From contig OZ004584.1 of NCBI GenBank assembly GCA_963924555.1, forward strand, positions 3,347,001 through 3,411,000: a stretch of DNA of 64,000 nucleotides, in the 5' to 3' direction. The notes under the pieces are model-generated. The model saw only the letters and a list, made by a program, of their open reading frames with translations, was not told the DNA's origin and did no database searches. The stretch's first letter is position 1; each line of letters begins with the position of its first letter. The position numbers were made by a program, and so were the translations under genes. Shown piece after piece: positions 26,352 through 59,596 of the stretch. The stretch is from Crambe crambe. Lineage: Eukaryota; Porifera; Demospongiae; Poecilosclerida; Crambeidae.

Positions 26352-27928
26352 TCACTGGATATAAAATTCAAATGCTTCAATTGCCACATCTTCATTATTG
26401 ACTCCTTCATCTCTACAAACTCTCATCTCAATATCATCAGAGGTGTGGTCTTGCAGCTGCCTATAGAACCATGGAGGATTATCAGAAGAATCACAGTTAG
26501 TGCAACTTCCTTCATTCCATAGAGACTTAGTGGTATTACAGACACCCACTAGCTGCAAACTTATTCCATCACAGAAAAGGTTAGAATTATTCCTGAAGAA
26601 ATGTTCTTCTGATGGTAGTTCTTTACAGGAAGAATTAGGAGGAACTAAAACAGAGTGAAAAATAAAATAATAAGAATATTTACTATACATTAGCTACATT
26701 AGAAGAAAGTTTTCGTGGGATAAAAGTTTCATGGATTTTGTGGTTTTGAAAAGCAATACACAAAAACCAGGGAATTTAGCTATATGGTTCATTTTCACCC
26801 TATGAAAGTTGTGCACTATAAAAGCTATATCTTACCTCCTTCAGCAGCAAAGGTCCAAATGTGTTGTTTTGGGGATCCATGAGTTAGACTAATACCGTCA
26901 ACATAATTGGAATCCAGAGCGGAAGAATTCCTTAACCTTGGTTCACCATGATTACCAAATGCATCAGGTATCCCGACTTGATAAGCTCTGATCATCCCAC
27001 AGACTCTGGAATAGTTGAAACCATGTGTGGTAAAGAAGACTGATGAACAGCTTGCATTGCAAGAGTTGATCACACATGTGCGTATAGGATTGCAAGCAAT
27101 TCCCACCTTGAGATCACAGGGACACTGGCTATAGCAGTCTCTCATGTCCAGTTCAGCCACTCTCATCCACCCTCCAGTGATGTTACCGCATGACTTGGTC
27201 ATGTCACAGTACACACGCACAGCAGATTCATTAGAAGACGTGATCCAATAGTGGCCTGAGGGAGAGGAGGGAGCAAACTGGAGAATACTAGCACATGAAG
27301 TTGCAGGATGATTATGATATAAACCAAGTAACCTCTGTAGCGTCGTAGCTACTGCAGAAAAAGTTTGGTTTACTTTAATCTCTAACTCATTCAATCGATG
27401 ATCAGTTTCATTACCCAAGTGGAAAGCGTACTTCTCTAGTGCTGAATAGTTTTGACTCAATACTAGATTCAAACTGTTATTGTAAGATGAGGTCCCATGG
27501 ATTAAAGATATTTCAGACTTTAGTTGTGATATTTCAGCAAATGCAGCAATAGATGCAACCACTAAAATAAGCAGGAAAATAATGATGACAACCATGACAC
27601 ATGACACTCTCCAATTCTTCTGCAGGTTTTTCTTGCATGTAACACTTTTGATCTCAACTGCATTGTCATGAGGATTCTTCTGACAGGACTCATCAGCAGT
27701 CGTGTTTGAACGCATATTTTCCAGTGTGACCATGGAGTATGTGGCATTATCGAATGTAGCATCTGTATGAATGGACAGTTTTTTCTCTCTGTTGAGTTTA
27801 GAATATGTGGCTGGAATATCAGATAGTATTTCAGGTTGATCATCATTTTTATCAGCAGAATGCTTCTTCTTCTTGGACATATCCACCACAGCATAAGTGG
27901 GAACATGACAATCTAATTCAGAAGTCAT
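26352..27928 (-). CDS. Type II membrane receptor with fibrinogen-like ectodomain, copy A (intact)
   Basis: Two exons, 26836-27928 and 26352-26644 (TGA), encode 461 residues. The start ATG follows AACA and is the methionine conserved in all copies. Cytoplasmic tail about 1-107 with Tyr12 (PTYAVV), Tyr42 (ATYSKL), Tyr64 (ATYSMV) and a KKKK patch. Single membrane segment about 108-132, with no cleavable signal, so type II is inferred. Stalk 133-205 has several NxS/T sites. Ectodomain about 206-461 begins SCASILQF, SGHYWI, VYCDM, GGWMRVAELDM, like the N-terminal part of a fibrinogen-related domain. It continues with YVDGISLTHG, HIWTF and exon 2 NPPWFYRQL, DDIEMRVCRDE, a Cys-rich pattern I know from sponge and cnidarian proteins. 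The ligand is unknown. Signalling or endocytic use of the tyrosines is inferred. Confidence 0.82.
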
Positions 27929-27979
27929 TGTTCCAGGCAAACTATGCAGCAAACCACATCTAGCAACTATATACATCAC

Positions 27980-28009
27980 CATACATTAGCTGACATGCGC
28001 AGTGCAATG
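27980..28009 (-). promoter_or_regulatory. Conserved upstream block of receptor copy A
   Basis: ACTGCGCATGTCAGCTAATG on the minus strand, 52-81 bases upstream of the ATG. The same block precedes copies B, C and D at 65-95 bases. Conservation and fixed distance suggest core promoter or 5' UTR. Confidence 0.45.
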
Positions 28010-28020
28010 GATGGAAAAAA

Positions 28021-28075
28021 CATACATACATACATACATACATACATACACACATACATACATATACATACACAT
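28021..28075. repeat. (CATA)n microsatellite
   Basis: About 55 bases of CATA/CACA repeat just upstream of receptor copy A. Confidence 0.9.
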
Positions 28076-28311
28076 AGCGCATATGAATGTCTACTTGCTG
28101 TAAGTTATCATAACCATGGAGCAGAGCACAATAACAAACAACAGCTGCATGGTTGAAAGCACTCGGGAATCAGGTCATGTCATAGAGCAAGCACATAATA
28201 CAAAAAGAGAATAATGAGCACAGGGTGTAAAGTCTTCAAGTGGTTTTAAGCAATCAAGGCTACAAAATTAAAAACTACAAAATCTACAACTACTGAAATT
28301 TCCCACTACAG

Positions 28312-28495
28312 TAAGGAAAAGCAGGGCTATTTCACTATTCCGAACTGTCAAAACTTCTCGAGCTTATGAGCTCTATTTCGAAAGATATGTTCTATTATTA
28401 TAGTAGATTATATCCTCCAAGATGTCTCAGTAGTTTTAGAAATATTTGAACAATACGGAATTACCTGCAGTTCAAAATACCCCCACTTTGCCTTA
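28312..28495. mobile_element. Small inverted-repeat element, imperfect termini TAAGGCAAAG
   Basis: The left end is TAAGGAAAAGCAGGGCTATT. The right end read in reverse is TAAGGCAAAGTGGGGGTATT. A related left end with the same flank occurs at 38792 in the duplicated unit of copy B, so it was present before the duplication. Confidence 0.55.
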
Positions 28496-29027
28496 TATGG
28501 TAATAACTTTCTCTACACATGATATAATCACTCTATACAAGCAGGTTACTTAGCTAATGGAGCACTCCATAGTGAAAACTGACATGTGAAGTTTACTACA
28601 TAACAACTTCATGCATTGTAAGCAATTGGAGTGGCTTATAAACAACTCAAGTGACATTGAAAACGTACATAACTCCTCCACAGTGTTGTCTACAAACTGT
28701 GCAAATACATGTATGGAATACTGCCTTCTCTCACTTCCATTTGGGTCCTGCTAACCAGTTAGGAACAGGCAATTAATTGGACTCTAGACTAGAGCATCGT
28801 AAGCTGGTCATAAATTTATTTGTGTGATATACATTGCAGTAATGAATATGGAGCAAGCACTTTGAGTTCTACACCCACATAGGAGAAAAAAAAGAGTTTC
28901 TAGTTCAACTCTGTTGATTTGAACTTTCACCCTGGTATCCAATTAAAATGAGCATGCTCATATTTGTCTATGTATACTTATATCCCATGCGTGAGGGAGA
29001 TCAAAGGCCCACTGTGTGGTTTATAAG

Positions 29028-29064
29028 TCATAATGTCCGTTGTCATGAACGACGGACATTATGA
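29028..29064. repeat. Perfect 13-bp stem hairpin
   Basis: TCATAATGTCCGT is followed by an 11-base loop and the exact reverse complement ACGGACATTATGA. The surrounding 28.5-30 kb holds no supported gene. Confidence 0.8.
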
Positions 29065-30295
29065 GTACACAGCTCCACATATCATTGCACTTGCAGTGGG
29101 TATAACTGTTGCCATATTCTCCATGGAGACAAGAAATCGCGGCTGCTAAAGCGTCAAGGTGAAGTTACTTTACTGTAGCTAGCCTAGTCTATACTCGCCT
29201 TAGCTAGCTATAGCAGGATATAAAATAGTTATAACATGGGTGTTGTTTATTGTTATAACTTATATACAGGTACACATAATAGTGTGTACGTAGCTTACTC
29301 ATGCAATATTCATCCATAATCTGATCTATTTTTAAACTGTATAATAGTTAAGAGACAACCTTCACTAATGAAACAACATGATAAACACTCTCTACCATTT
29401 GTCTTGTGTATATTCTTGAGGAAGATGACTTAGCTAATAGAGCACTCCAATGTGTGTGAAAATACAACCATGCAAGTAGCTATAAGGATCAGGATGTCAC
29501 CCAATAGAGGACAAGAAAGGGACGATACCGACACAAGATAACAGGAAGCGATTAACCATTAAACCACGCCCATTAACTAAACTATATTTAAACTAGCTAC
29601 ATTGCATATTTATTCATTCTCTGTTCGAGTGCTGATGTAAATACGGTGTATATTTTATTCTGATAATTTAACTAACTACTAAAGAGAGTCTGCCGCTACT
29701 TGGGCAGAGGATCCTGTTGCAGTCACCCCCTCCAGCAGACCGGGACCTATAACACAATTAATGTGAGGTATGCTTCTAAACCATGCATAACAACTGATTA
29801 TAAAAATAAAATAAATAAATCATGTCACGAGATGAAGCGCCAGCTCAAGAATGACTTATTGAGATTCTTCAGCAGACTGAACATTCATGTGGTTCAAAGG
29901 CCCACAGTTTTAGCATTTAACCTGTATGTTTGTATTCACATAACATGTAGCTAGCAGTGATCCTTCGTTCATGCCCATCCTAGCTATCTCGACAACTATG
30001 TGCTTATTCATCCATTTCTTGTAGTTTCCATGGCAAAGGCAGCAGCAAAATGATTGCTGATTTGCTGAACACAGCTAGGCTGGTAAAGCCATTCCCACTA
30101 TGATGACAATAAACAAATCTTCAAATGAGAATCCGGATTCAAAAAAAATCGGAGCATGTAGCTATATGTAAGCAGTATGCCTGGCTCTTCCTTTCCTTCC
30201 ATGCGGACAACATAAAGACTGCACAACTATAGAGCTATTCACAATTTTTTCTTTTTTCCCGTAATACACTAGTCCGAAAAAATTTTTTTATAAAC

Positions 30296-30332
30296 AAACG
30301 TTGCGATCACTTTACAATGATCATCTTCAGTG
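30296..30332 (-). ncRNA. Hammerhead-ribozyme-like motif at the end of a Penelope-like remnant
   Basis: On the minus strand CTGAAGA (fits CUGANGA) is followed by GATCA, a loop, TGATC (stem II) and then GCAAC where GAAAC is expected. A two-pair stem III with a GUUU loop can be drawn next. One core base is wrong and stem I is weak, so this copy is probably inactive. It lies directly after the GIY-YIG remnant, where such ribozymes are known in Penelope-like elements. Confidence 0.35.
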
Positions 30333-30394
30333 TTTAAAATGATATGCCGTCAGGTTATAATCATTAAATACCCATGAGCTATGTTAACTAAAGG

Positions 30395-30670
30395 TTATGA
30401 GGCTATTGTAAACATTTGGTAGTACTCCAACGCTCTATTCATTTTCTCTCTCTGTTTCCTAATGTACCAAGATTCTAAATAGCATCTTTGATATAGCTTC
30501 TGATTGTCCACTACCTCAGCATTACTCCAGTCAATGAGGTGGTTGTGCACAATTGCATGTTCTGCGACAGCAGTATTGGTATCATTTGAAGTTAGGGCTC
30601 TCTTGTGCTCTTTTATTCTGTGAACTAATGTTCATCCTGTCTGTCCAATGTTATAATTCCTACACGGAAT
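30395..30670 (-). pseudogene. Penelope-like retroelement GIY-YIG endonuclease remnant
   Basis: The minus-strand frame reads CRNYNIGQTG, a TGA in place of an expected Arg codon, then RIKEHKRAL, AVAEHAIVHNHLIDW and RCYLESWYIR to TAA. This is the YIGQTGRTL...RLxEHKRA...AVAEH...LESWHI pattern of the C-terminal GIY-YIG domain of Penelope-like reverse transcriptases. The reverse transcriptase part was not recognised. The paralogous flank near 42590 lacks this stretch, which fits an insertion. Confidence 0.75.
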
Positions 30671-31403
30671 CTCCTGATCTTTCACTTTCTGGAATTCTAT
30701 CCTTCATGGAGCTTTCTCAATGCAGTGTGTGATTTGAAACAAGTTCTAAAGCTTAGTGGGTTTAGAATTCTTTTGATGCTCTCTGACACATTCACAATCC
30801 ATGAGAATACAGCATATGTCAAGTCAACAGCAAATGATATCACTATGAAAAATATGATATTATCCCAACACTGCCTTATCTAAAGTTACAACCACCACAG
30901 ATATAGTCTCCAGAAGCTAGAGGGAATAAATGCTAGCTAGGTAGCAATTGGAGTGGCTTTATAAACTTAGTATAACAACTCAAGTGAAGTACAATGAAAG
31001 CAATAATGTTACTCCCCCACAGTTCCCCCACAACAGTGTTGTTTATGTGTATGGATACAAGCTGTGCAAATAAATGCATGGAGTATTGAACCATTCTCCA
31101 TACCATTACTGTATACCACATAAGTACATGGACAGCAATAAATTACTACCAAGATATGGATTCATGCCTTTAGTCTAGGGTCTAATAGCTGCCAGTTCTA
31201 TAATTATTGGTGGCTGGGAAATAGAGAGGACCGAAATTATCATTCCCTATCTTGACTCTGCTGACCTTGACTTGTTATCATGGTACTGTATCCAAGCAAT
31301 CAAGCATAATAACTCATGTGAAATACACCATAAGCATACATAGCCTCGTGCAGGCGCTTAGCATCTCCTGCTCCTGCATGCGTCGAATTAATACTGGACT
31401 ATA

Positions 31404-31900
31404 CCGTAATCGTATAAATTTTCGATGGGGTTTTATTTTCGTTTTTTTTGTAGTCGATCAGAATCCTCAAAAATAATAAACGGAAGTCTTAGTACTATGA
31501 CGTCATATATGACGACGATGAGCATGCGTGTGCGATGTGATATCGATAGCAGCTGGAAAAAAACCTGGAGCAGATAGTCCATGAGACGAAAGTATCATGC
31601 TTCATTACGGCCGTTACCTGTCTCTCTTCTACAACGAAGCGTCTCGCCTTCCGTAGCAGTCTAGATTTTAGTCTGGCGTCGCCAGCCCAGCTTTTCTTCT
31701 TTTTGGGGACTATCTAGATTTCTCTGTAGTAGCCACAAATCACGAGAAGGTAGCTAGCAGCAGGCAATTATATACCTATTATGCGCGTGCATTATTTTCC
31801 ATGTGCTTGATACAAAAATTAGACCTGCAGAAATTTTTTATTATAGGAACAGCTCCGGAAATCACGAAATTTTAAACCTCTGAAAATTTATACGATTACG
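31404..31900. mobile_element. 497-bp inverted-repeat element with empty site preserved in a paralogous copy
   Basis: The ends are CCGTAATCGTATAAATTTTC and GAAAATTTATACGATTACG. It is flanked by ATA on both sides. The duplicated segment at 49060-49090 has the uninterrupted sequence GGACTATACACAAAACCCTA, showing the pre-insertion state and a 3-bp target duplication. The interior carries a TGACGTCA palindrome and no open frame. The superfamily is not assigned. Confidence 0.85.
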
Positions 31901-32313
31901 ATACACAAAACCCTATAAGTACAGGCTGGTTACAAAAATAAATAAGTCATATCGTAAGATCAAGTGCCAGCTATATAACAATGACTTACTGAGAGACTGA
32001 ACATTCATGTGATTCGGGGACACAAACAGAAGAACAGTGATTCTTTGTCCATGTCCATCCTAGCTGCAGCTAGATGCTCTTCATTTATTTCTTATAAGGC
32101 GCAAAAGCAGCAGAAAAATGATTGTTATCTCCAGCAGCAGACAATCTGATTTGCTGAACACAGCTAGGCTGGTTGTAAAGCCATTCTCACTATGATGACA
32201 ACAATGTAGCAAGTCTTCAAATGAGAATCCAGATTAAAAAAAACAACACTTCCTTTCCTCCCACACAAGAGTATGAGACTATACAGATAATATATACTGA
32301 AAAACATATGTAA

Positions 32314-32332
32314 CCCCCCCCCCCCCCCCCCC
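32314..32332. repeat. C19 homopolymer
   Basis: Nineteen C in a row. The paralogous positions near 41550 and 49470 have only three to five C, so this run expanded after duplication. Confidence 0.9.
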
Positions 32333-32464
32333 ACAGTGTTTCTATAGCTTCATGTATTGGATATGAACTGTGGAATAACAATGTACTCATGCATGGAATA
32401 CTGAAAACAAAACATGACAAACATGCCATAAGAGCATTGAAATCCATTATTTCTTGCATAGACG

Positions 32465-33140: not shown

Positions 33141-33489
33141 AAAAAGGAAAGTAGGGATGGCTGTGTGTGATTCAAAAAAGTTCAGCAACAAGAGAATGAA
33201 CTTCAGTAAAGAACCCCTTACCCATCACCAATACTACCAAACTATGAGCTAACTATTCCTACTTCACTCCCTTCATATTTCATCTTGGCCTGTTATGGCA
33301 TGAACAGATGAAAATGGCAATTTTAAAAGTCACTATAAAATGATACTGCTTTATCTTCTGCTCTTCATACTTGAGTCCTAGCACATTGAAGGTGTCTTCA
33401 AGTTATGAGTCGCTGACTGTAGAAGAGACGTATTCTGGAGTTATGAAAGAAAATACTACATTAGTCTAATGGGGCAATTCGTGCCATCC

Positions 33490-33760
33490 CCCATCCATTT
33501 TGCTTGCATCCTGATATGTCTATCCTCAAAACAATTGCTCTAATGTTGATATCAATCATGTATTGTCTGCACAATCGTTACATAGTCTTTTCCAGATGGT
33601 GGTTTCCAGTTTACAGATGCACAAGCTATCATTCTTCCAATGTTGCATACCTCCTTTGTATGGGTTATCTATCAAGTTGTGTACTTTTGAAGATTAGCAT
33701 ACCTGATTGTGGAAGCATACACGACATGGAATCTGAATGCTTATTTTTCTCACGATAATA
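33490..33760 (+). pseudogene. Remnant of the multi-pass membrane protein family
   Basis: The nucleotide sequence parallels two parts of the 35-37 kb pseudogene: the stretch encoding ISITYCL, DRYIV, LPVYRC and the later LKI-x-x-x-DCG segment, now joined with the intervening kilobase missing. No complete frame remains. Confidence 0.6.
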
Positions 33761-34806: not shown

Positions 34807-35129
34807 CTTAATATCATGCAATAAGATGATAGGCCTACATATCGACTTTATTCAGGCTATAATAAAAGATACATTGATAAGTATTATACCACCCTACACA
34901 TGAACTTACAGTTCACATGATGTACACAGGATCATTTACTTAACAGAGGCCAGAACGTGTTTTAGCTAGCTATACTCTAAAGGTTTATTCTAATGGAATG
35001 TGTTGCTTATCATAACATACAGACTAGCTCCTTGTCAACAGGTCACAGTTCTGGGAAAGCATAAATGGAGTGGCTAAAGCTATAATACCACTGCATTGTA
35101 GTTTGATACGAATAACTCTAAATCTGACA

Positions 35130-36986
35130 ATGTGTGAGAGACTCACTTTTGTTGTTAGCATCTTTTTACTGTGTGCTGTGATCACCGAATGCAGCAAGTG
35201 GAATGATATGGACTGTCCTCCATGGACCATACTGAATGAGACGTCTAACAACTGTGAGTGTGGGCGTGATCTTGATGGGATTGTACAATACAACAGTGAA
35301 ACTCTTGAAGTGTCTGTGAAGGCTTTATAGTGAGAAGTGGGAGGAGACATTCTTGAGCTATTGCTTCTACTCTTGTTCTTATTCTCATTTTTAAGAATAC
35401 CATCGAATATTCACCAAAAATACATCTGAACTGAATGAAGAGGTATGTGGATCCTTCAACAGGACTGGTCTAATGTGTGGTGAGTGTAGAGCAGAATATG
35501 CTCCATCTGTGTACTCGTATGACTTAGCTTGTGTGGAGTGTAAGGACTACAAGTATAACTGGTTGAAGTATATTGCTGTAGCATATCTGCCACTGACTGC
35601 ATTTTACATACTAATGATTGTATTGAGAGTATCAGTTAATTCTGGTCCTATGGTCGTGTATGTTACCATTAGCCAAATGATAGCATCACCTGGATTGCTC
35701 AGATTTTTTATCACTACAAATAGAGACATAGATATGATATCTATGCTAGCATTATCTCTTTATGCTGTTTGGAACCTTGACTTTTTTCGTAGTTTTTACC
35801 ATCCATTTTGCTTGTATCCTAATATGACTATCCTCCAAACGATTTCTCTGGACTATGCAGTTGCAGTATATCCTCTAGTGTTGATATCAATCACGTATTG
35901 TCTAGTTCGACTGCACGACCGTTACATAGTAATTTCCAGACTGTGGTTGCCAGTGTACAGATGCTGCTCCACGTTCAGGAGAAAGTGGAATATCAGAGAA
36001 TCACTGGTGAATGCTTTTGCTACATTTTAAATTCTGTCCTATGTGAAGATAATGAATATTTCATTTGATATACTGACATTGAGTCATAGTTATTATAATG
36101 AGAGTGGTGATAGAGCAAGCAGTTGTTTATCAATGGCTCCATGACTACTTTCAGTAAAGAACACACTCCATATGCTATACTTGCTATTGTGATGTTATTT
36201 ATCTTCAACTTCCTGCCACTGGTTCTTCTTTGTGTGTACCCTTCTCGCTGCTTTCAAAAGTACCTCAATTGCACTAAATATTCATACCGAACTCTTCATG
36301 TCTTCATGGACATGTTCCAAGGATGCTACAAGGAAACACCAAGGGACTGCAGATATTTCGCTGGCTTTTACCTGTTTCTGAGGAGTTTGAATCAGTTATT
36401 ATATGTAGCAACTAAGAATCCCATATGTGACAGTCGAGGGTAGAAATCAAACTTTATTCACGCTTTCTACTTTTGAAAAAAAAAGTTCGAAAAGCAGAAA
36501 TTTTTATTGTAGAGCATCAGTCATGACAAAAGTAAACTTTGACTAAAACGTGAATAAAGTTTGATTTCTACCCTCGACTTTCACATATACTTTTCATTGG
36601 CAATGTATATGGTGATGGTTGCACTACTTCTGGTGGCAGTCTGTAAGCCCTACAAACACCATATCCATAATATGATCGATAGTGTCATATTTCTCATCAC
36701 TATTGCCATGCATGCCGCTGCTTCATTGTTCATATATGCTCCATATGTAGCACCAACATATGCTGTCAAACACTTCAAATTTGCACGAATTTTTGTTTTT
36801 CCAGTAGTATTCATACTTCCTCTCTATGGTTTAAGCTTGCTCGTCCATCGAGTTTTGTCACTTTTAAAGATTGGCGTACTTGACTGTGGATACCATAAGC
36901 TCAAAAGGAAAATGGCTCAATTGTCAATGAAGTCTCATGTTTTACATCATGATCATTATGACGAGTATTCACCTCTTCTCAAATAG
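35130..36986 (+). pseudogene. Broken multi-pass membrane protein with Cys-rich ectodomain (sponge-type family)
   Basis: The start at 35130 gives a signal peptide-like MCERLTFVVSIFLLCAVITE and then DCPPWTILNET, stopping at 35328. A second open stretch (about 35395-36030) has CGSFNRTGLMCGECRAEYAP, CVECKDY and several membrane helices. A third (from 36123, or 36031 in a shifted frame) and a fourth (36561-36986) carry more helices and end EYSPLLK, TAG. Frames change near 35330, 36025 and 36115, and a fold-back element interrupts the gene at 36423. I associate the FNRTGLMCGEC plus multi-helix layout with large uncharacterised families in sponges. Function is unknown. A set of unusual introns cannot explain the element or all the stops, so it is called a pseudogene. 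Confidence 0.7.
36423..36588. mobile_element. 166-bp fold-back element inside the membrane-protein pseudogene
   Basis: Inverted arms of about 40 bases, 36423-36462 and 36549-36588, contain GTCGAGGGTAGAAATCAAAC and its reverse complement with only terminal differences. They separate codons for NPICDS from those for FHIYFSLAMYM. Confidence 0.85.
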
Positions 36987-39344: not shown

Positions 39345-40895
39345 TTAGTACACATAAATTTCAAACGCTTCAATTTCAATATCTTCATCCACACGTGACT
39401 GATCACGACAAATATTATCAGTTGTGGCGCTTGGTAGCTGTTTGTGGAACCATGGAGAGTTAGTACAATTAGGAGTGCAGTTGTGCAGAGAATCAAATTT
39501 GACAAGCAAGGACTCCTAAAAATTGTTGGTAAAGGATAGCAAGAGATGGTTCAAGATGCAGGATTGTAGGAGACAGCTTGTAAGTAAATTGTGGAGTGCT
39601 TAGTTGTCAGCAGCCAAAGTGTACATTATCCACAATATAAAATCTGCTATTTTATGATTCAGCTACATAATTCCTGCCAATATTTCTGGCCATACAGAAA
39701 TTGTATAGAGAAAAATAAATAAACAAATACCTTGTGCAGCAGCAAAGGTCCAAATGTGTATTCTTGGGGATGATCCATGAGTCAGACTAATGCCATCAAC
39801 ATAGTTATATTCTATGGTGGGAGAGCTCATACCCTCATGAATCCCATACATTTCAAATCCATCAGGTGTCCCTACCTGATAAGCTCTGATCATTCCACAG
39901 ACTCTGGAATAGTTGAAACCATGTGTGGTAAAGAAGACTGATGAACAGTTAACATTGTAAGAGTTGATCACACATGTGTGTGCAAGATTGCAAGCAGTTC
40001 CCAAATAGAGATCACTGGGACACTGGCTACAGCAGTCTCTCATCATGTCCAGTTCAGCCACTCTCATCCACCCTCCAGTGATGTTACCGCATGACCTGGT
40101 CATGTCACAGTACACACGCACAGCAGATCCATTAGAAGACCTGATCCAGTAATGGCCTGAGGGAGAGGAGGGAGCAAACTGAAGAATACTAGCACATGAA
40201 GTTGCAGGATGATTATGATATAAACCAAATAACCTCTGTAGCATCATAGCTACTGCAGAAAAAGTTTGGTTTACTTTAATCTCTAACTCATTCAATCGAT
40301 GATCAGTTTCATTACCCAAGTGGAAAGTGTACTTCTCTAGTGCTGAATAGTTTTGACTCAATACTAGATTCAAACTGTTGGTGGAATTGAGCTCTTCTTG
40401 GAGAATCATACACTTGTTATCAATGGTTTGCTTAACATGGTGAGAAAGTGAAGAAGTATTGTAAGATGAGGTCCCACGGATAAAAGATATTTCAGATTTT
40501 AGTTGTGATATTTCAACAAATGCAGCAATAGACATAACCACTAAAAATAATGATGACAACCAAGACACATGACACTCTCCAGTTCTTCTGCAGGTTTTTC
40601 TTGCATGTAACACTTTTGACCTCAACAGCATTGTCATGAGGATTCTCCTGACAGGACTCATCAGCAGTCGTGTTTGAACACATATTTTCCAGTGTGACCA
40701 TGGAGTATGTGGCATTATCGAATGTAGCATCTGTATGAATAGACAGTTTTTCTCTCTGTTGAGTTTAGAATATGTGGCTGGAAAATCAGATAGTATTTCA
40801 GGTTGATCATCATTTTTATCAGCAGAATGCTTCTTCTTCTTAGACATATGCACCACAGCATAAGTGGGAACATGAGAATCTAATTCAGAAGCCAT
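39345..40895 (-). pseudogene. Type II fibrinogen-like receptor, copy B (two compensating frameshifts, damaged exon 2)
   Basis: Exon 1 (39731-40895) is one long open frame. Relative to copy A it loses one A in an A-run after NREK and 11 bases in the membrane-segment codons. Between these two sites about 65 residues are read in a different frame. The Tyr64 motif is lost, yet a hydrophobic run WLSSLFLVVMSIAAFVEI still follows. Tyr12 and Tyr42 motifs and the ectodomain (SGHYWIRSSNG, GGWMRVAELDM, YVDGISLTHG) are kept. Exon 2 (about 39345-39515) keeps NCTPNC, SPWFHKQL and CRDQSRVDEDIEIEAFE but lacks the FCDG part, and its phase does not fit the exon 1 donor. It could encode a variant protein but is more likely decaying. 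Confidence 0.65.
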
Positions 40896-43314: not shown

Positions 43315-44070
43315 AAGTGTTGGTCCATGAGTCAGACTACGTAGTTGGAGTCCAGAGTGGGAAAATGCCTTAGATTACCAAATGCATCAGGTGACCCAAC
43401 TTGATAAGCTCACTATTGTCGAAATTTTAATCCACTGAGCCAATTTCGTGTCTCATTATTCAACTTAAATGATTCTCTAGCACCAAAATGTTTAGACTAC
43501 TTGCATATGAATTGAACTTATTGTAGGATTTAATGTTTCATAGCTATAGGCAATATTATCATTCACAGTATAGTTTCTGAAGACAGCTGTTGAATCAAGA
43601 GCAATTTAGATCTCAATAGTGAAATCTCAGCAAATACAGTAACTAATGCACCCACTACAATAAGTAGTGGAATGATAACCATGCATGGAAATTTTTTATT
43701 CAGCTCTTTTCACATTGACTTCAACTTGTCATGAGGATTCTCCTGACGGGACTCATCAGCAGTCATGTCATCTCCATTGGAAAGAAAATTTATACAGCTT
43801 TAGAGACCTGCAAGGTCCAAGTGTGTTGTATTGGGGGTACTCCATGAGTTAACACCATCGATATTATAGTGGAAGAAGCTGTTCCAAAAAATTCATTAGG
43901 AATAGGTGCCCAAACTTGATAGGTTCTGATCATCGCACAGACATTCAGTCTGGAACAGTTGAAACCATGTGTGGAAAAAGAGATAAATAAACAGTCTCAT
44001 TGACAGAATTAATCATAAGTGCGTGCAGGACTGCACCCAATCCTGAGATCACTGATCACCACTCATAGAC
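43315..44070 (-). pseudogene. Two decayed, rearranged fragments of a fibrinogen-like receptor gene
   Basis: 43315-43440 resembles the ectodomain end (GGTCCATGAGTCAGACTA). 43430-43790 resembles the stalk and cytoplasmic region (GACTCATCAGCAGTC). 43800-44070 resembles the ectodomain again (CATGAGTTAACACCATCGAT). There are many indels and no open frame. Confidence 0.65.
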
Positions 44071-44258: not shown

Positions 44259-45946
44259 TCACTGGATATAAAATTCAAATGCTTCAATTGCCACATCTTC
44301 ATTACCAACCCCTTCATCTCTACAAACTCTCATCTCAATATCATCAGTGGTGTGGTCTTGCAGCTGCCTATAGAAGAACCATGGAGGATTATTAGAAGAA
44401 GCACAATTGGTACATCTTTCATTCCAGAGAGGTCTGCTGTTATTGCAGAGCCCACTTACTCCATCACAGAAAAAATTATTCTTTAAAAATGGTGGTAATG
44501 GTGGTACTTGTGTACAGGGAACTGAAAGAAAATGAAAAATAAATGATAAATACCATGCATGCATACTACATTAGCAAAAAAATTTTTTGTGGGATCAAAT
44601 GTTTGTAGATTTCATGATTTTGAATACACAAAAGCAAGGGAATCAGTAGCTAATATGGTTCACCATTAAAAGATTTTTTTTATCCCATGAAAGTTCTGCA
44701 CTATGTAGTAGTTAGAGATATATATCTTACAGTTACCTCCAGCAGCAAAGGTCCAAATGTGTCGTTTTGGGGCTCCATGAGTCAGACTAATGCCATCAAC
44801 ATAGTTAGAGTCAAGAGTCAAAGGGCTCATTCGAATGCCAAAAATACCAAATGCATCAAGTGACTTAACTTGGTAAGCTCTGATCATTCCACAGACTTTG
44901 GAATAGTTAAAACCATGTGTGGTAAAGAAGACTGAAGAACAGTTAGCATTGTCAGAGTTGATCACACATGTACGTATAGGATTGCAAGCAGTTCCCATCC
45001 TGAGAGCACTGGGACACTGGCTACTGCTTTCTCTCATGTCCAGTTCAGCTGCTTTCATCCACCCTCCAGTGATGTTACCACATGACCTGGTCATGTCACA
45101 ATACACACGCACAGCAGAGCCATTGGAGGACCTGATCCAATAATGGCCTGAGAGAGAGGAGGGATCAAACTGAAGAATAGCAGCACATGAAGTTGCAGGA
45201 TAATAACCGTATTTCTCTAGATAACTCAGAATTAAAATCTTAGTCTCATTCAACACTGCTGAGAGAGTTTGATTCAATTTGATTTCTGTTTCATTCACTA
45301 TTGCTGAAAGACTTCGATTCAATACAATTTCTAGTCCACTGAGTTGATTTTGTGTCTCCTTATTCAACTGGGAATGATTCTGAACTAAATGATTAACATG
45401 ACTTTCTAGCACCGAAAATTTTTGACTCACTTGCATATAAATCTAACTGATTAATTCTTCACAGGAACTCTTGTTATTTGCAGTAGATTCTGAGGACAGC
45501 TGTTGGATCGAGAGCTGTTTAGACTTCAACAGTGAAATCTCAGCAAATACAGCAATAAATACACCCACTAAGGCAAGAAATGGAATAATAACCATAACTG
45601 AGATGCATGCGAGTTTCTTATCACATAGATTCAATTTTTTTTCGCATGGAATATTCTTGATTTCATCCATATCATCATGAGGATTCTCTTGACAGGACTC
45701 ATCAGCAGTCGTGTTAGTACACATGTTATCCAGCGTTACCACAGAGTATGTTTCATTATCAAATGCAGTACTGGCATAATTCTTTGAAAGAGATGATTCC
45801 TTCTCTCTGTTGAGTTTAGAATATGTGGCTGGAACATCAGATAGTATTTCAAGTTGATCATCTCTTTTAGGAGCAGAATGCTTCTTCTTCTTAGACATAT
45901 CCACCACAGCATAAGTGGGAACATTACCATCTAATTCAGAAGTCAT
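44259..45946 (-). pseudogene. Type II fibrinogen-like receptor, copy C (single in-frame TAG)
   Basis: Exons 44731-45946 and 44259-44521 (TGA) keep splice sites and phase. The frame is open except for one TAG at 45443-45445, where copy D has TTT (Phe) in the stalk. Tail motifs are PTYAVV, ATYSKL and ETYSVV with a KKKK patch. A membrane segment near 112-135 and a stalk with many NxS/T sites follow. The ectodomain carries CAAILQF, SGHYWI, VYCDM, YVDGISLTHG, NPPWFFYRQL and DDIEMRVCRDE. If translated only to TAG it would give a tail-plus-membrane protein of 167 residues with no head. It could be a very young pseudogene or a polymorphic null allele. Confidence 0.75.
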
Positions 45947-46010
45947 TGTCCCAGGCACACTATGCAGCAAACTGCATCTAGCAACTACATCAGAGATCTA
46001 AATAGTTACT

Positions 46011-46509: not shown

Positions 46510-47290
46510 TGACTGATCATCCACCTTCCAGTGGGGTGTTTCCACATGACCTGGTCATGTCACAATACACATGTACAGCAGAGCCATTGGAGGACCTGAT
46601 CCAGTAGTGGCCTGAACTGGAAAACAGCAGCACAGGAAGTTGCAGGATAATTCCTGATTCTCTGAACTAAAATCTTAGTCTCATTCACTATCGCTCATTC
46701 TGTGTCTCATAATTCAACTGATGAATTCAATGATCAACATGATTCTCTAGCACCGAAAAGTTTGTTTGGACTCAATTGTATTTGAATTGAGGCAATTTTG
46801 TTATCAATGGTATTTGCATGCAGTAACATCTGACAACATCTATTGAATCGAGAGCAGTTCAGATTTCAATAGTGAAATCTCAGTAACTAATGCACCCACC
46901 ACAATAAGTAGTGGAATGATAACCATAACTGAGATGCATACACAAACTTCTTATCATATCGATTCAAATTCCCTTCACATGAAATATTCTTGACTTCAAC
47001 CATATTATCATAAGCTGATGGAACTTATCAGCAGTTGTGTTGGTACACATGTTATCTGGAGTATAGTCATGGAGTACATTTCATTATCAAATGCAGTACT
47101 TGCATAATTCCTTGAAACAGATGGTCCCTTCTCTCTACTGAGTTTAAAATATGTGGCTGGAGTGGTTGATAATCTATTTTGCACTATGCAGTTTGCTGCA
47201 TAGTGTGCCTGGGACAATGACTTCTGAATTAGATTATCATGTTCCTATTTATGCTGTGGTGGATATGACTATCATTCTGCTACTAAGAAA
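46510..47290 (-). pseudogene. Decayed receptor copy with inverted 5' end
   Basis: 46510-47158 carries reduced minus-strand matches to ectodomain, stalk and tail (CACAATACACATG, AGAGCCATTGGAGGACC; frame ATYFKLSREK). At about 47158 the homology flips. 47160-47290 is the gene's start region on the plus strand, with ATG at 47217 and MTSELDYHVPIYAVVDM. An inversion or template switch therefore placed the first exon part head-to-head with the rest. Confidence 0.72.
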
Positions 47291-47490
47291 GATGGAAACA
47301 TTAATGTATATACATGCAATGCTATACGGTAACTAAGCAGTGGGTAATGTATTCAAAAGTGCACTACTAGAAATCATAACCATGAATAGACTGTAAAAAC
47401 AGAAGAATTATATACACACTTAACAGGTGTACACTTTGTGTATGTTAAGATCTGGAGCAGAGCAGCACAACTATGTACACTATATATAAT

Positions 47491-47774
47491 AAGGGAAAAA
47501 GCATTTCATGAAATGAAAAAAGATGTAGGGATGACCACTGCTCAAAAAAGTAAGGAAACAAGAAGGATGGAAATGGGATCAATCTTTGTTCTGTATATCC
47601 CTACATATACGTACATTACTGCACTATAATCTGAAGCTACCTGACGTATATGTAGGGATTGTTGGCTGGATATACAGAACAAAGATTGATCCCATTTCCA
47701 TCCTTCTTGTTTCCTTACTTTTTTGAGCAGTGGTCATCCCTACATCTTTTTTCATTTCATGAAATGCTTTTTCC
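47491..47774. mobile_element. Near-perfect fold-back repeat, arms of about 120 bp
   Basis: 47491-47612 and 47644-47774 are reverse complements with no mismatch seen apart from an 11-base gap (right arm has AGCCAACAAT extra). Each arm contains a unit bounded by GTAGGGAT and ATCCCTAC. The perfect pairing implies a recent event or ongoing conversion. A transcript would form a long hairpin. Confidence 0.88.
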
Positions 47775-48069
47775 CTTACTTGTTCCTGGTCTTTTTTCCT
47801 CTTTATGGTTTTAGCTATGTATAGAGTTCATTCTTCTATGTGTATGCAGGGACAGATGAAAGAAGAATAGTTCTCCAATAGTTCTCCAGCATACCAGCCC
47901 AATCATTATCAACGAGTCAAGGTATTGTGTTATTGTTGAGCTATACTTGGAGGTCAAAGATGCTGAAATAGAGTCTACCGTGGTGAATCTAAATCCCCGA
48001 GTCGATACAGTAGTCTATCATCATTATCTAGAGCTAGCTAGCTAGAGACAGCTGAGTAATATTATAATT

Positions 48070-50599: not shown

Positions 50600-52272
50600 T
50601 CACTGGATATAAAATTCAAATGCTTCAATTGCCACATCTTCATTACCAACCCCTTCATCTCTACAAACTCTCATCTCAATATCATCAGAGGTGCAGTCTT
50701 GCAGCTGCCTATAGAACCATGGAGGATTATTAGAAGAATCACAGTTAGTACAACTTCCTTCATTCCATAGAGGTCTGCTATGCTTACAGGTCTTTTTCTC
50801 TAGCCCACTTACTCCATCACAGAAAAGGTTCCTTAAAAAGTGTCTTTCTGGTGGTAGATGTGTACAGTAAGAGTTATGAAAGGCTGAAAGAAAATGAAAA
50901 ATAAAATGATAAATAGCATGCACACACTGCATTAGCAGAAAATTTTTGTAGGATCAAATTTTGTGGATTTTGAATACACTAAAGCAAGGGAATCAGTAAT
51001 ATGGTTCACAATGAAAGATTTATCCCATGAAAGTTCTGCACTAGAGAGATATATCTTACATGATTCAGCAGCAAAGGTCCAAATGTGTTGTCTTGGGGCT
51101 CCATGAGTCAGACTAATACCATCAACATAGTTGGAATCAGGAAAGTTTCTTAGTCTCATAGGTTGACCATGATTACCAAATGCATCAGGTGTCCCAACTT
51201 GGTAAGCTCTGATCATTCCATAGACTCTGGAATAGTTCAAACCATGTGTGGTAAAGAAGACTGAAGAACAGTTGGAACTGTCAGAGTTGATCACACATGT
51301 GCGTTTAGGATTGCAAGCAGTTACCATCCTGAGAGCACTGGGACACTGGCTACAGTTGTCACTCATGTCCAGTTCAGCCACTCTCATCCACCCTCCAGTG
51401 ATGTTACCACATGAACTGGTCATGTCACAGTACACACGAATAGCAGATCCATTAGAAGACCTGATCCAGTAGTGGCCTGAGGGAGAGGAGGGGTTAAACC
51501 AAAGAATAGCAGCACAAGAAGTTCCATGAAAACCTGAATAACTCTGAATTAAAATCTTAGACTCATTCAACACTGCTGAGAGAGTTTGATCCAATTTAAT
51601 TTCTGTTTTATTCACTATTGCTGAAAGAGTTTGATTCAATACAATTTCTAGTCCACTGAGTCGATTTTGTGTCTCATTATTCAATTGGGAATGATTCTGA
51701 ATTAAATGATCAACACAATTCTCTAGCACCGAAAAATTTCGACTCACTTGCATATAAATAAAACTGATCGTAGAATTTAATTCTTCACAGGAACTCTTGT
51801 TATTTGCAGTAGCATCAGAGGACAGCTGTTGGATCGAGAGCTGTTTAGATTTCAACAGTGAAATCTCAGCAAATACAAAAATAAATGCACCCACAAAGAC
51901 AAGAAATGGAATAATAACTATAACTGAGATGCATGTAAGCTTCTTATCACATCGATTCAATTTCTTTTCGCATGGAATATTCTTGACTCCAACCGTATTG
52001 TCATGAGGATTCTCCTGACAGGACTCATCAGCAGTCGTATCAGTACACATGTTATCCAGCGTGACCATGGAGTATGTTTCATTATCAAATGCAGCACTTG
52101 CATAATTCCTTGGAAAAGATGATTCCTTCTCTCTCATGAGTTTAGAATATGTGACTGGAACATCAGATAGTATTTCAGGTTGATCGTCTTTTTTAGGAGC
52201 AGAATGCTTCTTCTTCTTAGTTATATCCACCACAGCATAAGTGGGAACATGACAATCTAATTCAGAACTCAT
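50600..52272 (-). CDS. Type II membrane receptor with fibrinogen-like ectodomain, copy D (intact, ITIM-like)
   Basis: Exons 51060-52272 and 50600-50883 (TGA) encode 498 residues. The tail (about 1-112) holds Tyr12 (PTYAVV), Tyr42 (VTYSKL) and Tyr67 (ETYSMV). The second fits the ITIM consensus (V/I/L/S)-x-Y-x-x-(L/V/I) exactly. A KKKK patch lies at 19-22. Membrane segment about 113-136; no signal peptide, so type II is inferred. The stalk of about 130 residues has repeated NxT/S (NQTLSAIVNKTE). The ectodomain carries SCAAILWF, SGHYWIRSSNG, VYCDM, GGWMRVAELDM, YVDGISLTHG and HIWTF. Exon 2 adds FCDG, NPPWFYRQL, DDIEMRVCRDE and FEFYIQ. Its longer stalk distinguishes it from copy A. Recognition or inhibitory signalling is a hypothesis. 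Confidence 0.85.
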
Positions 52273-52337: not shown

Positions 52338-52367
52338 CATACATTAGCTGACATGCGCAGTGCAAAT
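52338..52367 (-). promoter_or_regulatory. Conserved upstream block of receptor copy D
   Basis: CTGCGCATGTCAGCTAATGT block, 66 bases before the ATG, as in copies B and C. Confidence 0.45.
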
Positions 52368-54739: not shown

Positions 54740-54900
54740 ACCACTAAATAGTTGATCCATAACATTCACAGTATAAATGGATGGAAAAAATAAATAATAG
54801 CTACATACATTATGCTAACATTTATTGTGAGTTCATGACCATGCATATGTCAAGATCTGGAGCAGAGCAGCACAACAACAAACAACAGCTGCATGGTACA
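54740..54900 (-). pseudogene. Orphan receptor upstream region without its gene
   Basis: CTAAATAGTTGATCCATAAC and ATGGATGGAAAAAATAA match the region just upstream of copy D (52325-52385), followed by the shared AGCACAACAACAAACAACAG. The coding region that should lie at lower coordinates is missing, so a whole copy was probably deleted. Confidence 0.5.
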
Positions 54901-56244
54901 AAGTACACTATACATGATATCCATCAGGAGTCATATCTTGCTTGACTATAGCTAACTAATGATTAAGGGACCATCTTCACTGATGAAAGCAGATGCATAG
55001 TACCATGCAAAAAGCAAATCATGTTGCTGCAAGTGGTCACCACACCTGGTCAAGCCAGGATACCTGTGTACACTAGGAACAGTGCTCGCAATCTCTTGCA
55101 TGGAGCCTGGCTAGGAACTCATGCACAGGAGGACTGATTATCTCGTCTCAGCAAGTGATGTGAGCACCCATGCAATATGAGAGAGAGCCAGTTGACTTCT
55201 CTACCCTATATACACATCACAGCACTGCATAAAGTGGTACTTGAGGAAAGGGACTTTGTTAAGGAATGCTCCTAGTGAAAACGGCTATTAGTACTGAAAT
55301 CAATCAAGTGAAATAGGAAGCTGGTTGATTCCTAAATTTGCACATGTTCATCAGCTGCAGAATAATATGTCATATCCAATACAGCATAGGATTCAATTAA
55401 CTTAGCAGAAAGTAAGAGAACCAGAAGCCCTATAATTATAAGCAAAGATGAAGTGGAAGTGTAATTATATTATGATGAGCACATGCACAGCACCATGTTT
55501 TAATATCAACAGGAAATGTTTATCTAATATCCGTGGTATGTGGATCCATACTTCAAAACTGTGGCCAAGAGAGGGTATAAATAACAAGAGTGATGTCTCC
55601 CACTTCAGTAGGCTGGATAACCTGACCATTTCTTGACAACAAGTACCTAATTCTCTTCAAAATATCACTATATCAACCCAGACGCTATTTTTTCCTCGGA
55701 TGTACAGTGCCACAGGCTTAAAGAGTAGAACTTTTGTATTTTTCGTGTTTCTGTGTTCCAGAGTTTGTATTTCTAAGCTACAGGTCATAGGGGTCTAAAA
55801 CTCAGTAAAGATATAAATTGCTATCACTCTCACTACAGTACAAATATCAATGAACATGAAAATGAAAACCGTATTATTTATAAACAACTGCACGCGAAGG
55901 TACCTAAAACGGGTGTGGGATTCACTTTCTTTAGCTCATAATTTCCATAACTCATTTAGTTAAGGCCTACAATCTTGAACATTTCTTCCACTAGCATTAG
56001 TATCACTTCTACAGTTCTCTTTGCCATCCTAGCACAAGGTAAGTTTCCACAATATTCTGTTTTTTAAGGTCCTAATGTGTTTAGATCATAATTTGTCCAA
56101 ATATTGTAGTTATATTTGAAAAGCATGTCAAGCTAGTGTCCAGTTTACATCGCTCCTAAGTCGAGTTCCATCCTCCAATGGTTTCTGCGTTATAGCTGCG
56201 TTTGTCGCTAGACTAGAGTAAAAGCTCAGATCCAGTAGCAGGAT

Positions 56245-56455
56245 GTGACGTCACAAGCACCACGCTAGTTTACCGCCATTTGCCAGCTGTAAGTTTGCAG
56301 ATCTGTAGAAAGAAAATACAAGATGCAGACCCCTGTCTTAGCTGCTAACATGTCGACTGCCATCTTTTTACAGATCCGTAGCTGCATGCAAAACTACAGT
56401 GGGAAAATGGTGGTAAACTAACAAGGCCATGTGGTGCTTGTGACATCACGTGGCC
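56245..56455. mobile_element. Fold-back element with GTGACGTCAC in its arms
   Basis: GATGTGACGTCACAAGCACC followed by TAGTTTACCGCCATTT recurs reversed as AAATGGTGGTAAACTA and GGTGCTTGTGACATCACG. A partial extra arm (GTGGCCTCGTTAGTTTACCA) follows at 56450-56470. The arm includes a perfect CRE palindrome TGACGTCA. Confidence 0.65.
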
Positions 56456-58060
56456 TCGTTAGTTTACCACATATACATACAATGTAAAGTGCTACACCTG
56501 GAAATCAAATTTAACTAGTACACATATCAGTCTACGCTAAGACCCTAAGACCGTGGTAATTGGGTGAACACATGGCGTGGCACATGTAGCTTATATGCCC
56601 ATCATGAAAACAATTATAACTCCAGTTCTAATTCATCTTTGCTTATATAATTATAAAATAAAAGAGAATAATGTTTATTGTTTCTTCTGGGTCTCTTACT
56701 TCCACTGGTACTTATAAACTGGACCAAGAGAGGGTAAGTAAACATGAGTGAAAATTCTTGATGTTGCCCACTTCAGTTGACTGAACAACCTGATGCGAAC
56801 TGTAGCAGGTCCTCTATTTCTTGACAGCAAGTGCCAGAAGCTCTTCTGTTCATAATATCACCACATCCACTCAGTTTCTGCTTTTTCCTCAGAGATATAA
56901 GGGGTCAAAAATGGCTGAAAATGGCCAGGTTTCAGTGGTCAGTAGCAGCCACGAAGGATATATCTAAGGTTAAGTAAAGTAGTCTAAGTGTAAATCAACT
57001 CTCTAGTAGTAGTAATAAGAAGTTTTAGCTCCCTAGAACTGGAGGCTGAAAGTTTATGACTCTTCTAACAGAGCCATTCTCTCTACCTACTGATCTTTGA
57101 CTGACTGAACAAGTTGATGCGAACATAGACTATAGAGGTTCCAGAATGGACTGGAAATGATTAATTACATCCGCCTTGCGGTGTTCCGTACATTTATGGT
57201 AATACTTACCGGATATTGTATTCTACCCGGCTGTTTCCATCAATTAATTAACTGTCTAGTGAATTTCTACAACCAAATATGTACCCCAAATGGATAAAAA
57301 CAATACCATGCAACACTGCAAACTTTATATGAACTGCTTATATTACAGTATGAGCTGGATAGGTTAAACTTGGTCCTAGAAAATTACACAAAGCAGGTAT
57401 ACTATTTGACAAAGAAAGGTGTAGTAGTTAGTAACAATGTAGTAGAAAGTTGATATGTATCTTTTAAAACAATTTACTAACATGTACTTCAAGTCCTCAA
57501 CCACACTAACTATGGATGATAGAACTACTTCAGGAGATAAAATTACACAAAGTATTTATATGCAATTTTAACTGCTAGAGCACACTTTAACTCGAGTTTT
57601 GCTATGACAATAATCCCAGGGTCTTGGCATCTTGTAGTATAGTCTCCCTGGCAGAGTTCAGCCTCTTCATAGCCACTTACAAGCTTGTATGGTTAACCAC
57701 TAAAGTGATCTTTCCTGTTCATAGAGATACAGCTGCTTGTTAATATTAATTTAATAGGCGTTTCCAGTCCATGTAGGAACCTATATAGTCTATGATGCGA
57801 ATGACCTCACCACTCTATTTTTAGAATTTAAGTTAAGTTACATCATTGAACTATAACTCAGGATAGTTTTTTTCTTCGTGGACCTTTACCCTGTCGAGAT
57901 ACTTCACCAGATAAGAGCTGATTTAGGGTCCTCCATTAGCATTCACACACAAATAATTGAGTGGGCGTTCCAATTATTTGCGCACAGCTCCATTAGCATG
58001 CTTGCCTAAATATTTTGCACGCAGTTGAATTATAATTATATTCATGGCTTGTTAGAGCAA

Positions 58061-59596
58061 TTAATTGTACATGCCAAAATCACCCAAACTGGTGGGTCTT
58101 AGTGTAGACTGATATATTTCAAATGATTCAATTTGAATATCTTCATCCTCAAGTGGCTGATCACGACAAACTCTCATTTCAATGCTATCAGTTGGTAGCT
58201 GCTTGTAGAACCATGGAGGACTAGTACAATTAGGAGTACAGTTGTGTCCATTCCATAAAGGTCTGCTTTCATAGCACACTCCGTAATTTCCAACTGTATC
58301 ATCACAAAAATAATCTCCACCAATAATTTCTTGTAAAGACAGTGGTACAGGTGAACAAACTATACAGTGGAATAGTACATGATTAAATGGCTAGGACACA
58401 AAGCAAAATACCTCTATGTGAAGCAGCAAAGGTCCAAATGTGCTGTCTTGAGGATGCTCCATGAGTCAGACTAATGCCATCAACATAGTTGGAGTCCAGA
58501 GTGGGAGAATTCCTTAGTTTCGGATCACCATGACTACCAAAGCCATCAGGTGTCCCAACTTGACAAGCTCTGATCATCCCACACACTCTGGAATAGTTGA
58601 AACCATGTGTGGTAATGGAGACTGAAGAACAGTTGGCATTGTCAGAGTTGATCGTACATGTGCGTGTAGGATTGCAAGCAGTTCCCATCCTGAGAGCACT
58701 GGGACACTGGCTACTGTTGTCTCTCACATCCAGTTCAGCTACTCTCATCCATCCTCCAATGATGTTACCACACGACCTGGTCATGTCACAGTACACACGC
58801 ACAGCAGAGCCATTAGAAGACCTGATCCAGTAATGGCCTGAGGGAGAGGAGGGAGCAAACTGAAGAATAACAGCACAGGAAGTTGCAGGATAATTTCCAT
58901 ATTTCTCTAAATAACTCAGAATTAAAATCTTAGTCTCATTCAACACTGCTGAGAGAGTTTGATTCAATTTGACTTCTGTCTCATTCACTATTGCTGAAAG
59001 AGTTTGATTCTAGTCCACCGAGTCGATTTTGTGTCTCATTATGATTCTGAACTAAATGATCAACACGATTCTCTAGCACCAAAAAGTTTTGATTCACTTG
59101 CATATAAATTAAACTGATTGTAGAATTTAATTCTTCACAGGCAATCTTGTTATTTGCAGTAGTATCAGAGAACAGCTGTTGGATTGAGACCTTTAGACTT
59201 CAACAGTGAAAGCTCAGCAAATACGAAAATAAATGCACTCACTAAGATAAGAAATGGAATAATAACGATAACTGAGATGCATGCGAGCTTCTTATCACAT
59301 CGATTCAATTTCTTTTCGCATGGAATAATATTCTTGACTTCAGCCTTATTATAGTCATGAGGATTCTCCTGACGGGACTCATCAGCAGTCGTATTAGCAC
59401 ACATATTATCCAGCGTGACCATGGAGTACGTGGCATTATCAAATGCATAATTCCTTGGAAGAGAAGATTCCTTCTCTCTGTTGAGTTTAGAATATGTGGC
59501 TGGAACATCAGATAGTATTTCAGGTTGATCATCTTTCTTCTTTGTCATATCCACCACAGCATAAGTGGGAACATGATAATCTAATTCAGAAGTCAT
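58061..59596 (-). pseudogene. Type II fibrinogen-like receptor, copy E (frameshifted in the stalk)
   Basis: The N-terminal part runs from ATG at 59596 with PTYAVV, ATYSKL, ATYSMV and a membrane segment, then loses two bases near 59190 (SLLKSKG then out of frame). Deletions of 12 and 11 bases near 59010-59040 follow, and the last creates a TAG just before NQTLSAIV. The ectodomain frame then runs open to the donor at 58412, and exon 2 (58061-58359) joins in phase with GDYFCDD, NCTPNC, PPWFYKQL and MRVCRDQ. Exon 2 resembles copy B more than A, C or D. Its tail is extended beyond the FEIY end. The conserved upstream promoter block is not seen. Confidence 0.7.

Follow-up and report, generated by a model that had tools for sequence, protein, structure and literature searches.

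A sponge gene cluster for putative type II receptors with tyrosine-motif tails and fibrinogen-like heads belongs to a very large family

Sponges discriminate between self and non-self and keep dense communities of microbes in check, and the receptors involved are unsettled. Here we describe a cluster of five receptor gene copies in a 64,000-nucleotide window of the genome of the demosponge Crambe crambe (contig OZ004584.1, hereafter C6; C6:3347001-3411000; assembly of 143.1 Mb in 119 contigs), each of which joins a tail with tyrosine motifs through one membrane helix and a stalk to a cysteine-rich head. The window is a corner of a very large receptor family, on a scale beyond what the window itself shows, with conserved tyrosine motifs enriched in its tails and with copies that have been duplicated and have exchanged parts. 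The reading that we favour, with a probability of roughly 0.55, is that of a very large, fast-turnover family of type II recognition receptors, in which a ligand-sensing head would act through tyrosine phosphorylation of the tail to discriminate non-self. Recognition signalling is likely; an immune or allorecognition use is unproved. If the reading is true, this tyrosine-tailed family is a direct sponge candidate in the signalling language of vertebrate natural killer (NK) receptors, and a family of this size makes the question of sponge recognition approachable by linkage and expression.

Results

Five receptor gene copies in the window

Copies A to E (Table 1), all on the minus strand, span 26352-59596, from the final base of the stop codon of copy A (26352) to the initial base of the ATG of copy E (59596). 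An earlier note on this DNA had described five gene-sized copies sharing a tyrosine-motif tail and a lysine patch, with intact, damaged and lost copies side by side. Both descriptions hold, with the third tail motif of copy B in another frame. Copies A and D are intact, B, C and E are damaged, and two relics lie among them. In both intact models a long exon 1 runs from the tail through the membrane helix and stalk to take in some 60% of the head, and exon 2 encodes the remainder; at the predicted splice sites the introns are GT-AG, in phase 1, and measure 191 bp (A) and 176 bp (D). Repeat families of 253-300 bp recur in the window at start-to-start spacings of about 12.9, 5.0, 6.3 and 7.4 kb, as expected from tandem duplication. 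A 93-bp inverted repeat (90%) pairs 45892-45984, at the start of copy C, with 47179-47271, beside a relic.

Table 1. Receptor gene copies, relics and parts of copy D, in window coordinates.
Feature	Position	Strand	Details
Copy A, intact gene model	26352..27928	-	461 amino acids; exon 1 27928-26836, exon 2 26644-26352
Copy B, frame changes	39345..40895	-	N-terminal half A-like (tail 96.7%); C-terminal half unlike A, nearest E
Relic, tail/membrane segment of the family, 1 stop	43572..43775 (C6:3390572-3390775)	-	
Copy C, one in-frame stop codon (45445-45443)	44259..45946	-	exon 1 down to 44731, its donor site uncertain; exon 2 44521-44259
Relic	46554..47172	-	tail/helix piece with 7 stops (46816-47172) and head motif (46554-46570)
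Copy D, intact gene model	50600..52272	-	498 amino acids; exon 1 52272-51060, exon 2 50883-50600
Copy D, predicted cytoplasmic tail	51925..52272	-	about 116 residues; TYAVV, TYSKL, TYSMV and KKKK patch; 4 Tyr
Copy D, predicted membrane helix	51862..51924	-	Kyte-Doolittle mean 3.07; central 15 residues without charge
Copy D, stalk	51520..51861	-	8 sequons; corresponding part predicted helical in relative P0020
Copy D, head, exon 1 part	51060..51519	-	fibrinogen-like YCDxxxxGGGW through HIWTFAA
Copy D, head, exon 2 part	50600..50883	-	C-terminus DIEMRVCRDEG..EFYIQ
Copy E, frame changes between membrane helix and head	58061..59596	-	

Layout of tail, membrane helix and stalk

The motifs TYAVV, TYSKL and TYSMV are common to the tails of A, D and E; in C the third motif is TYSVV, and in B it lies in another reading frame. 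The lysine patch reads KKKK, with KKK in E. The single membrane helix proposed earlier fits a Kyte-Doolittle 19-residue mean of 3.07 in D and 3.42 in A, and basic residues precede it, as for an N-inside orientation. N-glycosylation sequons are enriched in the stalks (8 in D against a shuffled mean of 2.4, P 0.0006; 4 in A against 1.4, P 0.026), in line with the claim that the stalk is N-glycosylated, and the lack of enrichment in the tail of D (1 vs 1.2) fits a cytoplasmic N-terminus. A type II single-pass topology with the N-terminus inside is thus predicted, and as far as sequence goes a type II layout, a signalling tail and a tandem gene cluster occur together at this locus. In the predicted structure of P0020, an intronless relative 41% identical to D, the tail is of low confidence and the head mostly confident (mean predicted local distance difference test, pLDDT, 75.7 overall), and one helix (residues 86-155) continues from the membrane into the stalk.

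Identity and fold of the head

The heads of the window carry 15-17 cysteines (15 in D). In P0001, the protein of copy D, residues 263-309 match the NCBIfam model NF040941, 'fibrinogen-like YCDxxxxGGGW', at 40.8 bits against a cut-off of 30. No Pfam family exceeds its cut-off for the heads of A and D, and we rejected a canonical fibrinogen domain (PF00147) for the window copies, with no match up to E 1 in the exon-1 frames of A and D. Thus the cysteine-rich part of the earlier description stands, and the fibrinogen-like part is secured only for the N-terminal portion of the head. The genome holds 81 PF00147 matches, none in the window, and separate canonical clusters of them lie at C5:0.989-1.054 Mb, C19:1.235-1.259 Mb, C8:6.404-6.439 Mb and C9:3.444-3.455 Mb. 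A C-type lectin domain likewise gave no Pfam match up to E 1 for A or D.

The nearest Pfam profile is COLFI (PF01410), under its cut-off in D and A (19.0 and 23.3 vs 26.2 bits) and likewise in the relatives P0020, P0007 and P0024. Among 120 listed database relatives, 18 carry a precomputed COLFI label and none a Fibrinogen_C label. Modelled alone, the head of P0020 reaches a pLDDT of 88.1 and a predicted template modelling score of 0.88, and in the P0020 models a folded head stands on a helical stalk, which supports, at the level of prediction, the arrangement of head and stalk described earlier. Among solved structures the fibrillar procollagen C-propeptide matches best (Foldseek E 1.7e-4 for the whole model, 8.2e-4 for the head alone), with ficolin and intelectin among weak fold matches. 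Matches to reelin, CBM16, Eph and haemagglutinin-head folds, at tied middling scores, were set aside. Heads of this kind are known from sponge and cnidarian proteins.

This collagen likeness, in structure and in the COLFI labels, speaks for the main rival to the sensing of microbes or foreign tissue, namely that these are adhesion or matrix receptors whose collagen-propeptide-like head oligomerises or binds matrix in cell-matrix or cell-cell adhesion and tissue patterning. We consider this a real possibility, if clearly a minority one; further evidence on it is given below.

Family size and genomic distribution

A head query of the genome gave 553 first-look candidates, 150 of which were scored; of the 150 matches listed (weakest E 1.1e-35), 128 fall on C6, a 9-Mb contig that makes up 6.3% of the genome. 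Two degenerate DNA motifs have 144 and 131 exact genome matches, vs 0 and 1 for reversed controls. The first 100 matches of each motif were used in contig order, leaving out 44 and 31 places, so that the C6 shares of these lists (84 and 97) are biased upward. The union of the head query and the two motif lists gives 207 loci, hence about 207 head-bearing loci at least, a figure that includes relics, broken copies and possibly a few chance motif matches. On C6 the loci fall into 13 groups spread from 1.20 to 7.91 Mb; one group is a lone locus, and the largest hold 40 and 35 loci. Of 5801 candidates in a protein database, 2483 reach E<=1e-3, with 120 of them listed; relatives of the same layout come from both the 'ena' and 'jgi' sources.

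We examined 86 loci (L009-L094), a non-random set that combines the 30 top matches of the head query, the 30 top matches of a tail query and 26 loci chosen by place. Four lack a head and one has a short head piece only; the remainder represent 60 distinct heads. A strong membrane helix lies upstream in the frame of the head in 51 of these 60 loci, exon 2 not being checked, or in 44 of 51 once the nine loci known only through the tail query are excluded. The nine of 60 loci that lack a helix may be damaged or differently built. One database protein, P0131 (MKVQAACKLF..), has helix, stalk and head with almost no tail; it may be a partner that does not signal, or its gene call may be incomplete.

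Tyrosine motifs of the tails

Among the 51 helix-bearing loci, tyrosine is present in the tail of 50 and the motif Yxx[VILMP] in 46; the core Yxx[VIL] is found in 38 and YxxP in 19. Tail types vary from cluster to cluster, with YAVV/YSKL/YSMV in the window and AIYAQV, LAYDVL/YSEI/YSKL, YELP/YEIP, YEMI/YNVP/YEDL/YKMP and YAEV elsewhere, and the tail of one locus (L062) has ten tyrosines through internal repeats. In a set of 55 non-redundant tails, out of 154 from this genome and the database, V, I, L or M stands at +3 of 95 of the 200 scored tail tyrosines, where shuffling gives 34.3 of 193.4; the observed fraction was reached in 0 of 2000 shuffles and is somewhat inflated by internal repeats. 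P stands at +3 of 25 of the 200, vs 8.9 in shuffles. The tyrosine-motif tail proposed by the earlier note is further backed by divergent relatives: across nine divergent YAVV-class tails, two tyrosines never vary (9/9), nor do eight further alignment columns, and a third tyrosine aligns in eight of the tails, in some as YDM.

The strict immunoreceptor tyrosine-based inhibitory motif (ITIM), [ILVS]xYxx[VIL], is present in 17 of the 51 tails from this genome, at 19 sites where shuffles give 5.2; copy D has it as VTYSKL, and none of the three main motifs of A takes this form. A classical immunoreceptor tyrosine-based activation motif (ITAM) array, with paired Yxx[LI] at a spacing of 6-12, was rejected, occurring in one of the 51 tails, and the hemITAM form [DE]GYxx[LI] occurs in none. 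No charged residue was found in the central 15 positions of any of the 51 helices, which gives no sign of adaptor-paired activating partners; adaptor-coupled activating receptors with a charged helix were accordingly dropped as candidates.

Candidate signalling partners

Candidate kinases and a candidate tandem-SH2 phosphatase are represented in the genome by domain matches. SH2, SH2 and protein tyrosine phosphatase (PTP) matches follow one another in that order at C18:6540942-6539084 (-), which is the layout of SHP phosphatases, and at C15:2906819-2913224 an SH2 and kinase pair, in Src-type order, occurs in one frame three times. SH2 matches are also dense at C5:1468041-1522148, many of them paired about 400 bp apart and with no kinase nearby among the matches listed; this array is possibly an expanded tandem-SH2 family.

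Duplication and exchange of parts

A tandem array with copy turnover is supported by evidence both of duplication and of exchange. Copies A and B are 96.7% identical in the tail and 95.7% in the stalk, whereas their segments of intron plus exon 2 align over just 98 bp (80.6%). The second segment of A matches those of C (87.3% over 465 bp) and D (88.3% over 478 bp). The second segment of B is matched best by that of E (84.4% over 141 bp), and this side of the case is the less strong. The groupings AB/CDE and ACD/BE thus conflict, and no single unbroken history fits, which implies exchange within the window. Beyond the window, L022 (C6) and L023 (C12) differ by a dS of 0.013 in the head vs 0.149 in the tail, and L060 and L062 are identical across a run of 164 of 377 variable sites (residues 256-360 of L060). 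In a run test for exchange, 14 of 78, 1 of 10, 3 of 6 and 16 of 36 pairs exceed the threshold; because this test ignores rate differences along the gene, the case leans on the segment comparison in the window.

Some groups on C6 have the appearance of blocks duplicated recently. The hits at 5542984, 5545013 and 5549265 recur 23.4-23.5 kb further on, at 5566429, 5568471 and 5572769, and hits at 6331244 and 6333705 recur after 63.75 kb. In addition, L059, L061 and L063 (C6:7.600-7.616 Mb) carry a similar tail, helix and stalk on a different ectodomain (GTLYTRWG..CVVCTK), which has at least 155 genome matches (150 of 208 candidates scored) and which presumably resembles the C-terminal domain of short-chain collagen relatives. 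A protein database search with the tail only returned 18 proteins, 10 of them new. Six of the eight new ones examined have the same head complete, in P0130 it is cut short, and P0125 ends before the head; none of these eight has a different ectodomain, and the tail on another ectodomain was seen in the C. crambe genome only.

The presumed short-chain-collagen likeness of this second ectodomain would again suit adhesion. On the other side, about 200 copies with damaged neighbours and exchanged parts would be unusual for structural adhesion genes, and tail types vary widely among clusters.

Selection on heads and tails

The ratio of non-synonymous to synonymous substitution rates (dN/dS, omega) was compared between heads and tails, a test proposed by the earlier note. 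It is 0.46 vs 0.44 in the subfamily of the window (6 pairs), 0.69 vs 0.80 in a second (78 pairs), 0.75 vs 0.27 in a third (10 pairs), in which the 'head' cut includes an extra partial head, and 0.43 vs 0.51 in a fourth (45 pairs, with one locus counted twice as L035 and L048). A faster head is therefore clear in one of four subfamilies, with near equality or reversal in the others. Across 54 distinct heads omega is 0.56, with mid-head windows reaching 0.8-0.9, and 30 of 110 sites are conserved at P<0.05. Site-wise positive selection at P<0.05 appears at four of the 110 sites, about the chance number, and so provides no evidence of an arms race at single sites, in a test that recombination may blunt. 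Copy turnover and exchange seem to be the sources of diversity.

The overall purifying constraint on the heads is what adhesion receptors would also show. A further explanation is mostly neutral birth and death, in which a small set of functional genes is swollen by tandem duplication and the majority of copies could be lost without effect. The moderately relaxed omega would agree with it, as would the three broken copies of five and the two relics in the window; the retention of helix and head in one frame at most distinct loci (51 of 60, exon 2 aside), the tyrosine motifs conserved in divergent tails and the significantly conserved head sites all speak against it, and we regard it as quite improbable.

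Other features of the window

Between copies A and B, 35028-36986 (+) holds pieces in several frames of a cysteine-rich, helix-rich membrane-like protein, and 33465-33758 (+) is a fragment, apparently a relic of a second copy of it. A perfect 111-bp inverted repeat with a 67-bp loop occupies 47490-47778. A tandem repeat at 15678-16153, with units ALESTMGAQ and LEHPLLTLK, can be read through in three of the listed frames, both strands included. A 433-codon open frame, rich in serine, glycine and asparagine, at 8013-9314 (+) lies where G+C content over 2 kb is highest in the window (0.477) and is probably an exon of an ordinary gene.

Discussion

In the reading that we favour, a head like that of fibrinogen or the procollagen C-propeptide, carried on a glycosylated, helical and probably oligomeric stalk, would bind a surface or soluble ligand, and stalk and head would cluster. 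Clustering would let a Src-type kinase phosphorylate the Yxx[VIL] or YxxP tyrosines of the tail, and the phosphotyrosines may recruit SH2 proteins, be it an SHP-type tandem-SH2 phosphatase, another tandem-SH2 protein or CRK- or NCK-like adaptors. SH2 proteins read motifs of both kinds, and Yxx[VIL] and YxxP tails may give different outputs. Duplication, both tandem and segmental, would supply the repertoire, along with the loss of copies and the swapping of tails and head halves between them.

We favour the sensing of microbes or foreign tissue mainly because of the size and turnover of the family and the parallels with the NK complex and with Botryllus and Hydractinia candidates. Weighing against it are the partial presence of canonical motifs (ITIM in 17, ITAM in one and hemITAM in none of 51 tails), the uncharged helices, the mixed dN/dS of heads and tails, and the chance number of positively selected sites.

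The same data can be read more narrowly, with polymorphic self-recognition receptors on C6 deciding tissue fusion or rejection as an allorecognition locus proper. The concentration of 128 of the 150 scored copies on one contig, the segmental duplications and mosaic genes, and the tyrosine-motif candidates of Botryllus and Hydractinia described in excerpts of PMC12065747 point that way. The missing site-wise positive selection points the other way, as does a term search of a study of grafting in Amphimedon (PMC5450542), whose main text lacks the word fibrinogen, though the head might be named otherwise there; we think an allorecognition locus proper unlikely. Slightly less doubtful, and still tentative, is a broader idea, that C6 is an NK-complex-like or histocompatibility-like region of some 200 or more phosphotyrosine-signalling type II receptors with their own head family, in which tails of the Yxx[VIL] and YxxP classes and ectodomains recombine as modules, providing individual self/non-self repertoires. 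Such a region would have been missed because most heads lack a Pfam label (18 of 120 listed relatives are labelled COLFI).

A description of this receptor family was not found in titles or abstract openings of the open-licence literature. According to excerpts of a recent review, candidate allorecognition proteins show no conservation among sponges, cnidarians and ascidians (PMC12065747). Surveys of sponge immune genes, as excerpted, screen by Pfam domains (PMC6208332, PMC8242945, PMC12909245), and two of these three screened fibrinogen as PF00147 or Fibrinogen C. Since the heads of the window fall short of PF00147, our results suggest that Pfam-based immune surveys can miss a repertoire of this size.

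Among known systems, fibrillar procollagen offers the best fold match over the whole head and the nearest Pfam profile in its C-propeptide (COLFI, PF01410); unlike it, the genes of the window encode a membrane receptor rather than a collagen, and their heads score below the Pfam cut-off. FIBCD1-like type II fibrinogen receptors and ficolins share a coiled stalk and a head of the fibrinogen superfamily, whereas the window heads do not match PF00147, and a comparable tyrosine tail is not known in either. The Ly49/KLR receptors of the NK complex are likewise type II proteins with an N-terminal tyrosine-motif tail, a stalk and a C-terminal recognition domain; they differ in that the window head is not a C-type lectin domain, the sponge tails mostly lack a strict ITIM, the helix is uncharged and the sponge family is larger. 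A further likeness lies in the lineage-specific expansions and contractions of NK-complex clusters described in excerpts of PMC1193534. In the fester co-receptors of Botryllus and the Hydractinia candidates the ectodomains vary and the tails bear ITIM, hemITAM or core Yxx(I/L/V) motifs (excerpts of PMC12065747). The fester co-receptors have a signal sequence and Ig and sushi domains, in contrast to the predicted type II layout and fibrinogen/COLFI-like head found here, and the setting of both systems is allorecognition, whereas the sponge receptors are known from sequence alone. Set beside these systems, the C. crambe family would add a new and very large form to the clustered tyrosine-signalling recognition receptors.

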